From NCBI GenBank assembly GCA_945949405.1, contig CAMFEP010000009.1, positions 1 to 32,201 of the forward strand: 32,201 nt of DNA, given 5' to 3'. Positions 5,063-30,345 of this stretch are shown here, in pieces (the first letter of the stretch is position 1; each line of letters starts with the position of its first letter). Made by a program: the position numbers and the translations under genes. The notes beneath the pieces are model-generated. The model ran no database searches and was not told where the DNA came from. It was given only the letters and a program-made list of their open reading frames with translations. Source of the stretch: Kiritimatiellales bacterium (GTDB lineage Bacteria > Verrucomicrobiota > Kiritimatiellia > UBA8416 > JAIOPI01).

Positions 5063-5091
5063 AGACCGCGTCCGGAGGCCGCGGTCCACCT
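5063..5091 (+). repeat. Short palindromic repeat, family B, copy 1
   Basis: agaccgcgtccggaggccgcggtccacct; 7-bp stem gaccgcg/cgcggtc; 29 bp identical to 29539-29567. Confidence 0.8.
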
Positions 5092-5095
5092 CGGA

Positions 5096-5119
5096 GTCGG
5101 GGTCAGCGACCCCGACTAC
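5096..5119 (+). repeat. Short palindromic repeat with CTACA-type tail
   Basis: gtcggggtc-agc-gaccccgac-tac, perfect 9-bp stem, immediately after the family B copy. Confidence 0.65.
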
Positions 5120-5242
5120 AGGGGATGACAGCCGAAGGCGCACCACGTTGCTGTCGCCCCTGATCTAACTCGGGGCGATTTCGGATTTGGTAACGACTGA
5201 ATATGCATGGAAATTATCCGGGGAATGGCTTAATTTTGGGCC

Positions 5243-13386: not shown

Positions 13387-13414
13387 GCCCGTGCGCGGAG
13401 CGCCCGGGCCACCT
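13387..13414 (+). repeat. Short palindromic repeat, family A, copy 1
   Basis: gcccgtgcgc-gga-gcgcccgggc-cacct; 10-bp stem with one mismatch. Near-identical at 17277 and 29330. Confidence 0.75.
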
Positions 13415-17276: not shown

Positions 17277-17303
17277 GCCCGTGCGCAGAGCGCCCGGGCC
17301 ACC
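17277..17303 (+). repeat. Short palindromic repeat, family A, copy 2
   Basis: gcccgtgcgc-aga-gcgcccgggc-cacc. Confidence 0.75.
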
Positions 17304-23989: not shown

Positions 23990-24028
23990 AAAAAGCGGGC
24001 CGCCCCCAGGGTGGTGGGGGCGGCCCGC
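23990..24028 (-). terminator. Strong Rho-independent terminator for the minus-strand beta-strand-repeat gene
   Basis: Perfect 13-bp stem gcgggccgccccc (23995-24007) / gggggcggcccgc (24016-24028), followed on the minus strand by a TTTTTT run; lies 25-30 nt past the stop at 24053. Confidence 0.85.
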
Positions 24029-27976: not shown

Positions 27977-27984
27977 GGCGGGCC

Positions 27985-28235
27985 CCACGCCTATGGCGTG
28001 GCGAGGGCGAAGCCTGCCTCGCGCGTGGCGGGGGCGGGCCGCTTCAGGAAGAGGGGGGAGATCGGAGTCCGGCGCGCGAAAGCGCGCCGCTCCGGGATGG
28101 GGGGGGCTTATCGGGAGTTCGGCCCGCGAAAGCGGGCCGCTCCGGGATGAGGGGGCTTATTGGGAGTCCGGCGCCACGCCTACGGCGTGGCTAGCGCGAA
28201 GCCTGCCCCGCGCATGGCGGGGGCGCGCCGCTGCA
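27985..28235. repeat. Mosaic repeat array (62-bp unit X, two ~50-bp units Y, second 62-bp unit X)
   Basis: X copies 27985-28046 and 28174-28235; Y copies starting 28070 and 28120 (cggcgcgcgaaagcgcgccgctccgggatg / cggcccgcgaaagcgggccgctccgggatg). Confidence 0.85.
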
Positions 28236-28328: not shown

Positions 28329-30197
28329 ATGCGTGGTTCAAGACCATTGCGGGGATTTCGTAAAACCCACTGGCTGGGGCGGTTGTGCCTGTTTTGCTTG
28401 CCTATGGCGGTTTTGGGTTTCGCGGAAGTGGGGTTGCGGCGGGTTGGTTATGGGGGGTATCCGGCGGTGTTTCGGGAGGTGGGGGACGTGGAGGGGCTGC
28501 GGCTGGTGGAGTTGGACTGGCCGGGGCCGGAGTCCTATTTCTTTCAGAATCATTTTGGGCGGGGATCCAGTTACCAGCAGTCCTTTTTCATGCCAAAAAA
28601 TGCGCACCAGGTGCGCATTTTTTTGTGCGGGGAATCGGCGATTAAGGGGGATCCGCAGCCGTTGCCGTTGTCGGCGGGGGCGTTTTTGGAGTTGATGTTG
28701 GAGGATCTTTGGCCGGGGACCGATGTGGAGATTGTGAACCTGGGCGTGACGGCGGTGGCGAGTTATCCCGTGCTGGATATCTTGCGGCAGGCGGTGGTGT
28801 ATGAGCCGGATCTGGTGATTATTTATACGGGGAATAATGAATTTTATGGGACTTATGGGGTTGCGTCGCAGCACTTTGCGGGGACGCATCCGGTGGCGTT
28901 GCGCGCCACGCGGGCGCTGCATGGGCTGGCGGTGGTGCAGTGGGTGGTGCGGCACTGGCTGGGTAACGCGGGCGTCGCAAGCGACGCCCCTACAGGGCGT
29001 GGAAAGGGCGCATCCTATCCCGCGACATTGATGGATGCGATGATGCGGCGGCAGGAGATTGGGCCGGAGAGTGGGTTGCGGGCGGCGGCGGCGCGGAACT
29101 TGGAGCATCATGTGCGGGAGATGGTGGGGCTGTGCCGGGCGCGGGGGGTGCCGGTGATGGTGTGTACGCTGGCTTGCAACGAGCGGAATTTGGCGCCGAT
29201 GGGGACGGGAGTTGCGGCGCGGGAAGCGTATAGAAAAGGAGACTTCCAAGGGGCCATCGATTTGGATACGCGGCCTTGGCGGCCGACGAGTTTGCAGCAG
29301 GAGGCGCTGGTGAGGGCGGCGGGGGAGATGCCCGCGCGCGGAGCGCACGGGCCACCTCGGAGCGGGCAGTTCATGGGAGAGCCGGGCGAGATGCTGTGTG
29401 ATGTGCGGGGGGCGTTTCGGGCGGCGTCGCCGGGGGGCGTGATTGGCTGGGAGCTGATGGATGATCATGTGCATCCGAGTTTGCAGGGGCAGTATGTGAT
29501 GGCGCGGGCGTGGGTGGGCACACTTGCAGCAGCCAGCCAGACCGCGTCCGGAGGCCGCGGTCCACCTTGGATCGATCCTGAAGCAGCGGCGCGTCTCCCC
29601 TGGTTTGAGGAGTATGCACAACGGTTGGGAAATAATGTGTATGAGCAGATTGCGGTGCAGATGGGGATGATGTCGTTATTTCGGGCGGGGTTTTTGCTGG
29701 AATCCAATCCGGGGGCGGTGGCGCATGCGCAGGCGGGGGTGGTGGCGCTGGGGCGCGACTTGCCGAAGGATGTGGCCAAGGCGTTTGACGATGCGATGCG
29801 CGCGGAGGCGTTGACGGGCGGGAGGAGTCCGGTGTCGGGGCTGGCGGGGCGTGCGCTGATGGGGATGGGGCGGTATGGGGAGGCGGAGCCGTTATTTGAT
29901 TTTGCGCGGCGGGCGCTGCCGCGTTATGCGGCGGCGCGGCGCGAATATGCGTACTGCATGTATTGGTGCCGGGAAAAGCGCAATGGGGAATTGAGCGCGG
30001 CGGACCGGGATGGGATTCGCGGGGAAATTCGTGATGGCGAGGTCCTGTTGAAGTACGGCAGCGATCCGGTGGGCAAGGCGGAATTTTTCATGGGCAAGTT
30101 TTATGAGATGTTGGGGGAGGGGGAGCTGGCGCGTGGGTATTTGGAGAGGGCGAGGGAGAGGAGGGATGAGGGCGGAGGGATGAAACCTGAAACCTGA
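28329..30197 (+). CDS. SGNH/GDSL-hydrolase-like protein with N-terminal hydrophobic segment
   Basis: VRIFLCGESAIKG (block I-like), VNLGVTAVASYPVLDIL, PDLVIIYTGNNEFYGTYG (GNNE block), DDHVHPSLQGQYVMA (D..H block). Confidence 0.8.
   Translation: MRGSRPLRGFRKTHWLGRLCLFCLPMAVLGFAEVGLRRVGYGGYPAVFREVGDVEGLRLVELDWPGPESYFFQNHFGRGSSYQQSFFMPKNAHQVRIFLCGESAIKGDPQPLPLSAGAFLELMLEDLWPGTDVEIVNLGVTAVASYPVLDILRQAVVYEPDLVIIYTGNNEFYGTYGVASQHFAGTHPVALRATRALHGLAVVQWVVRHWLGNAGVASDAPTGRGKGASYPATLMDAMMRRQEIGPESGLRAAAARNLEHHVREMVGLCRARGVPVMVCTLACNERNLAPMGTGVAAREAYRKGDFQGAIDLDTRPWRPTSLQQEALVRAAGEMPARGAHGPPRSGQFMGEPGEMLCDVRGAFRAASPGGVIGWELMDDHVHPSLQGQYVMARAWVGTLAAASQTASGGRGPPWIDPEAAARLPWFEEYAQRLGNNVYEQIAVQMGMMSLFRAGFLLESNPGAVAHAQAGVVALGRDLPKDVAKAFDDAMRAEALTGGRSPVSGLAGRALMGMGRYGEAEPLFDFARRALPRYAAARREYAYCMYWCREKRNGELSAADRDGIRGEIRDGEVLLKYGSDPVGKAEFFMGKFYEMLGEGELARGYLERARERRDEGGGMKPET
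28970..28997 (+). repeat. Short palindromic repeat inside the SGNH ORF
   Basis: gggcgtcgc-aa-gcgacgccc-ctacaggg, perfect 9-bp stem with CTACA tail. Confidence 0.75.
29330..29357 (+). repeat. Short palindromic repeat, family A, copy 3, inside the SGNH ORF
   Basis: gcccgcgcgc-gga-gcgcacgggc-cacct; compare 13387 and 17277. Confidence 0.78.
29539..29567 (+). repeat. Short palindromic repeat, family B, copy 2, inside the SGNH ORF
   Basis: agaccgcgtccggaggccgcggtccacct, identical to 5063-5091. Confidence 0.82.
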
Positions 30198-30345
30198 AAC
30201 CTGGAATGGGAGTGGATGGGGCGAGTTTGGAGGGGCGAGGGAGAAGAGGGATGAGGGCGGAGGGATGAGGGCGGAGGGATGAAACCTGAAACCTGAAACC
30301 TGAAATGGGAGTGGATGGGGCGAGTTTGGAGGGGCGAGGGAGAAG
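30145..30345 (+). repeat. Imperfect tandem direct repeat (period about 99 bp) containing heptamer triplets
   Basis: gaaacct x3 at 30182-30202 and 30281-30301, each followed by ggaatgggagtggatggggcgagtttggaggggcgagggaga or a close variant. Confidence 0.85.

Follow-up and report, generated by a model that had tools for sequence, protein, structure and literature searches.

GTAG-class REPs were defined by Di Nocera et al. 2013 (PMC3733652), who found them in PVC bacteria. In-frame intragenic copies were reported to be most numerous in the verrucomicrobium Opitutus terrae, where some genes, e.g., uvrA, hold two inserts, dimers encode 20–30 residues and GTGG is present in most of the GTAG-20 elements. 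The palindromes of the SGNH/TPR gene presented here are like these intragenic REPs in their GTAG/GTGG tag, short stem, several families per genome, in-frame copies and, judging from the homologues, PVC lineage, a likeness that concerns the described features. They differ from the O. terrae case in that they come from another genome and that three single REPs of two families are found in one gene. The initial annotation could not tell whether such a family is described in this lineage, a question that the 2013 study largely answers. The SGNH case, for which there is direct evidence of insertion, is a clear new instance of something that related bacteria were already known to show, and extends the O. 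terrae observation to another genome.

A second comparable system consists of the REPINs and RAYTs of Pseudomonas fluorescens SBW25 (Bertels and Rainey 2011, PMC3116915), with which the present elements share inverted REP doublets that form a hairpin, a link to RAYT genes and a high copy number. However, the SBW25 REPINs were described in extragenic space, whereas the REPIN of the family of the first SGNH element (the site-1 family) measures only 53 bp and is often intragenic, and the GTGG family found here consists mostly of single REPs. A tetranucleotide-tagged hairpin is also common to the TnpA_REP/REP systems of E. coli, Stenotrophomonas and Marinomonas (PMC8266576). A tagged single-stranded hairpin is the substrate of the Y1 transposase in that work, and the Marinomonas system still cleaves the GTGG variant.

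Rickettsial palindromic elements, the precedent put forward by the initial annotation, are likewise palindromes that lie in frame in unrelated protein genes (Ogata et al. 2002, cited in PMC3733652). In the account given through that citation, they are of the CGTC class or longer and have no known cognate RAYT. It could be proposed from the similar behaviour that the present elements belong to this separate family, adapted to insertion into coding sequence. Yet the tags here are GTAG and GTGG rather than CGTC, and the genome contains RAYT genes flanked by GTAG repeats, which makes such a membership extremely improbable. The present elements work like the rickettsial ones without being members, an analogy and not a family; they stand closer to the REP/REPIN of the GTAG class, which is associated with RAYT.

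Three Palindromes in an SGNH/TPR Gene

The host gene and its palindromes lie in the window, i.e., the whole stretch of 32,201 nucleotides that was analysed, as follows.

28329–30197, plus strand: host ORF, encoding a 622-aa protein with an N-terminal helix, an SGNH/GDSL-like domain and a TPR-like tail; three in-frame REP insertions
28970–28997, minus strand: REP 1, CCCTGTAGGGGCGTCGCTTGCGACGCCC; GTAG tag and 8-bp stem; single REP
29330–29357, minus strand: REP 2, AGGTGGCCCGTGCGCTCCGCGCGCGGGC; GTGG tag and 10-bp stem; member of covariance model R1
29540–29567, minus strand: REP 3, AGGTGGACCGCGGCCTCCGGACGCGGTC; GTGG tag and 10-bp stem (one mismatch); sequence equal to the family consensus

All three sequences quoted in the initial annotation are present in this ORF and are read in frame without a stop, the third element proper being 29540–29567. 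Their in-frame translations are AGVASDAPTG (REP 1), MPARGAHGPP (REP 2) and QTASGGRGPP (REP 3), and peptides spanning REP sites would include AGVASDAPTGR and VGASLATPAGADKR. On the minus strand, each tag sits just 5' of a GC-rich stem. As in GTAG-class REPs, the stems (8–10 bp, class ~6–13 bp) are preceded by an unpaired GTAG at site 1 or by its variant GTGG at sites 2 and 3. Very few dinucleotide-shuffled versions fold as well as the three elements do (z between −2.8 and −3.1). REP 1 corresponds to half of a 53-bp REPIN that occurs elsewhere in the genome. Each of the three is identical to a common variant of its own family, which points to a recent insertion of the SGNH copies.

The host protein is esterase-like and has weak Pfam matches to GDSL and TPR. 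A sequence search against the PDB gave no match. The AlphaFold model has a mean pLDDT of 82.5; compared by fold with the PDB, it comes closest to a GDSL acetyl xylan esterase and to TPR proteins, which points to a GDSL-type esterase plus TPR.

Insertions Revealed by Homologues

An alignment was made of the host protein and 57 full-length homologues; four of these come from related genomes, the others from a genome collection and, going by their record titles, mostly from Planctomycetota and Verrucomicrobiota. They are ~35–46% identical to the host protein, an identity that places the insertion bounds by residue rather than by nucleotide. The runs found in less than 30% of the homologues were solely residues 213–226, 335–352 and 404–410, plus the last three residues, and the three internal runs coincide with REP sites 1, 2 and 3. 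Residues 213–226 are missing from most or all homologues; residues 335–352 and 404–410 are each missing from 57 of 57. Because the only internal stretches missing from the homologues are the three REP sites, these are judged from the alignment to be real in-frame insertions. It had been claimed that mobile-looking repeats lie here in frame in coding sequence with the homologous blocks intact on both sides, and the alignment bears this out. Homologues with the same residues and no palindromes, named beforehand as counter-evidence, did not appear among the 57, which lack the residues.

Insertions of equal length, in multiples of three, had been expected at the three sites. Multiples of three were indeed found, and at the REP sites only, but the lengths are unequal, amounting to ~14, 18 and 7 residues (~42, 54 and 21 nt) at sites 1, 2 and 3. 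Since these differ from the ~28-bp element, either the element does not enter as a single fixed unit or the flanking residues were changed too. The insertions are predicted to lie in loops of the SGNH protein: at sites 1 and 2 the pLDDT drops under 50, a value to which scarce alignment depth also contributes, and site 3 falls on a helix end and loop. These insertions are a clean example of peptide loops added to proteins by miniature mobile elements of bacteria: there are three of them in a single gene, and homologues without the insertion show the place of each. They offer a natural set with which to test how often such events are neutral.

The gene might instead be a decaying pseudogene, in which REPs accumulate under relaxed selection and the frame was kept by luck. 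Three insertions in one gene, when almost all copies avoid genes, would fit this, as would other changes: ~16 residues near 295–304 have been lost relative to the homologues, the C-terminus is shorter by ~45 residues, and a GAAACCTG repeat is present at the 3' end of the gene. However, the 622 codons run without a stop, the catalytic-type motifs GESAIKG, GNNE and DDHVH are intact, and the self-trained codon model gives the ORF a good coding score (108), with positive scores on either side of each site. Without selection, three of three insertions in frame would have a chance of ~1/27. Decay of the gene is rather unlikely on this evidence. Its 3' end seems to have been truncated by a second repeat type, a direct repeat at 30160–30345, because the homologues have ~45 more C-terminal residues. 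The three REP hits, the shortened C-terminus and the lost stretch near residue 300 suggest that the SGNH gene is more tolerant of change than most genes.

Repeat Families across the Genome

Matches or elements of related architecture had been noted between genes elsewhere in the window, and these were recovered.

5064–5123, minus strand: intergenic tandem pair from the repeat models, GTAG REP at 5096–5123 and GTGG REP at 5064–5091 in the same orientation
13387–13412, minus strand: intergenic GTGG REP of the element-2 sub-type
17277–17302, minus strand: intergenic GTGG REP of the element-2 sub-type

The REP at 5064 is the window copy of element 3. Element 1 has no second copy within the window; the REP at 5096–5123 is a relative of the same architecture.

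The genome is a 1.95-Mb draft, 76% complete, and copies were counted from genome searches and the stretches around the matches. With up to three mismatches allowed, the element-3 pattern gave 36 genome matches against 0 for a reversed-pattern control. The covariance model R1, built from GTGG variants, found at least 121 copies. Elements 2 and 3 fall into this one model and are sub-types of a single GTGG family, whereas element 1 represents a separate GTAG family with 31 genome copies (control, 0); of the "three different elements" first described, only element 1 stands apart. A further GTAG model gave 26 copies. The high copy number in a single genome is typical of GTAG-class REPs, and the search for further copies proposed with the initial annotation thus yielded well over 100. 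Compensatory changes were seen in four stem pairs, with a covariation score of 0.327 versus 0.075 after shuffling (0/500). Among 42 other genomes, 44 GTGG copies were counted in one of the same genus (G001) and 20 in one of the same order (G006).

These numbers bear on the simplest alternative, namely that the three sites consist of nothing more than GC-rich codons that look palindromic by chance or codon bias. The genome is high in GC, and a scan also yields some chance tagged hairpins. Against this stand the pattern controls (0 versus 36 and 31 copies), the exact copies between genes and the homologues without the residues. Refuted by the alignment and the genome-wide copies, the alternative deserves virtually no credence.

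The 53-bp inverted doublet (REPIN) was found at 11 of the 30 site-1-family loci that were read, two of them degenerate; all three SGNH copies are single REPs. Tandem pairs of a GTAG and a GTGG REP in the same orientation, with gaps of 3–10 bp, occur at ten places in the genome including window 5064–5123, and are perhaps a compound mobile unit.

Intragenic and Intergenic Copies

The split between coding and intergenic copies rests on a home-made, self-trained codon model, which calls ~89% of the window coding and with which 109 GTGG copies were classified. Where the stem of a site-1-family copy varied or its coding score was weak (L178, L190, L200), it was read by hand. The model itself gave four in-frame intragenic GTGG copies, and reading the borderline cases added SGNH site 2 and L084. 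The resulting six copies are in five genes: SGNH (two copies), MurC, L137 (the protein resembles a glycoside hydrolase, while Pfam gave no match), L166 and L084. The other 103 of the 109 fall outside the in-frame intragenic class. The elements are strongly depleted in genes: most copies lie in intergenic space, as in GTAG-class REPs, in a genome whose coding share, estimated from the window, is ~89%. None of the classified copies clearly breaks a gene, and the sole copy on the same strand in another frame is at the boundary of two genes. L124 and L184 were considered as frame-broken genes and rejected, as the REPs there sit at a two-gene boundary.

In MurC, an alignment with relatives places the REP in a variable loop. 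The site-1 family is divided differently, with 7 of 31 copies intragenic and ~24 of 31 intergenic. The intragenic hosts are SGNH, TilS, a PKS, a debranching enzyme, an L,D-transpeptidase, a 900-residue protein and a membrane protein, and outside SGNH these copies are 53-bp REPINs. Five of the six intragenic doublets have the same orientation and frame and translate as VGASLATPAGADxRRPY or a close variant, each in a protein unrelated to the others, so that one element supplies the same 17–18-residue peptide to several of them. The REPIN of the debranching enzyme is inserted in a linker, and an alignment shows same-genus homologues (75–77% identical) without the insertion. TilS, the tRNA-lysidine synthetase (L187, G000 C26:1-1167), carries an in-frame 53-bp REPIN at residues ~236–256. 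It lacks ~85 residues that relatives have between the ATP-binding and C-terminal domains; the REPIN lies at that spot, and the loss may be tied to its insertion.

About a quarter of the site-1 family is intragenic versus ~5% of the GTGG copies. Taken together with the shared orientation and frame of five of the six doublets and the TilS copy at a missing internal region, this could mean that the 53-bp GTAG REPIN family is partly adapted to intragenic life, as though selection acted on the soluble peptide that it encodes or on the mode of insertion. We hold such an adaptation to be decidedly unlikely.

RAYT Transposases and Proposed Mechanism

The genome contains three Y1_Tnp (RAYT-type) genes, two of which are flanked by GTAG REPs, an association known for this class. 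The gene on contig C88 has GTAGGGCCGCAC hairpins on both flanks, and that on C5 is flanked by GTAGGGGCGC hairpins, which are similar to the site-1 family. The C5 gene also holds a GTAG REP of its flanking type inside its own ORF (L033 1706–1730, G000 C5; ALGTSAPTQ). A RAYT gene flanked by GTGG REPs was sought in this genome and in G001, G002 and G006 and was not found.

Very probably, the palindromes are ordinary REP/REPIN elements of GTAG and GTGG families that are spread by RAYT, with selection leaving those hits that preserve the frame in tolerant loops. By analogy with TnpA_REP (PMC8266576) and REPINs (PMC3116915), the basis for this route, RAYT (Y1/HUH) transposases would most likely have handled the REPs as single-stranded hairpins and brought them into the SGNH/TPR gene, in the way described for GTAG REPs. 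Stop codons being nearly absent from the GC-rich elements, frame-keeping insertions in surface loops could survive, provided that the SGNH protein is made and tolerates these loops. Purifying selection would remove the other insertions and best explains retention only in frame and in loops, an argument also made by Di Nocera et al. 2013 (PMC3733652).

The insertions might instead have spread through recombination or through gene conversion among the repeats, without transposition, which would accommodate the inserted length that differs from site to site and the coincidence of the TilS copy with the loss of an internal region. Yet the sites have no flanking homology in common, and the copies are in unrelated places where only the element is shared, which leaves this route highly unlikely next to RAYT-mediated transposition.

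Other Repeats in the Window

Several further repeats were observed. Directly upstream of the SGNH gene, a 66-nt direct repeat (27981–28046 and 28170–28235, 88% identical) with GCCACGCCTAYGGCGTGGC palindromes is possibly another repeat family. At the other end of the gene, a direct repeat with GAAACCTGAAACCTG at 30160–30345 spans the stop codon of the SGNH ORF. Within the SGNH coding sequence, CCAAAAAATGCGCACCAGGTGCGCATTTTTTTG at 28593–28625 resembles a two-way intrinsic terminator and encodes the conserved block MPKNAHQVRIF. A GC-rich hairpin with 14-bp arms is located between two convergent genes at 23995–24028 and is probably a terminator or another repeat.
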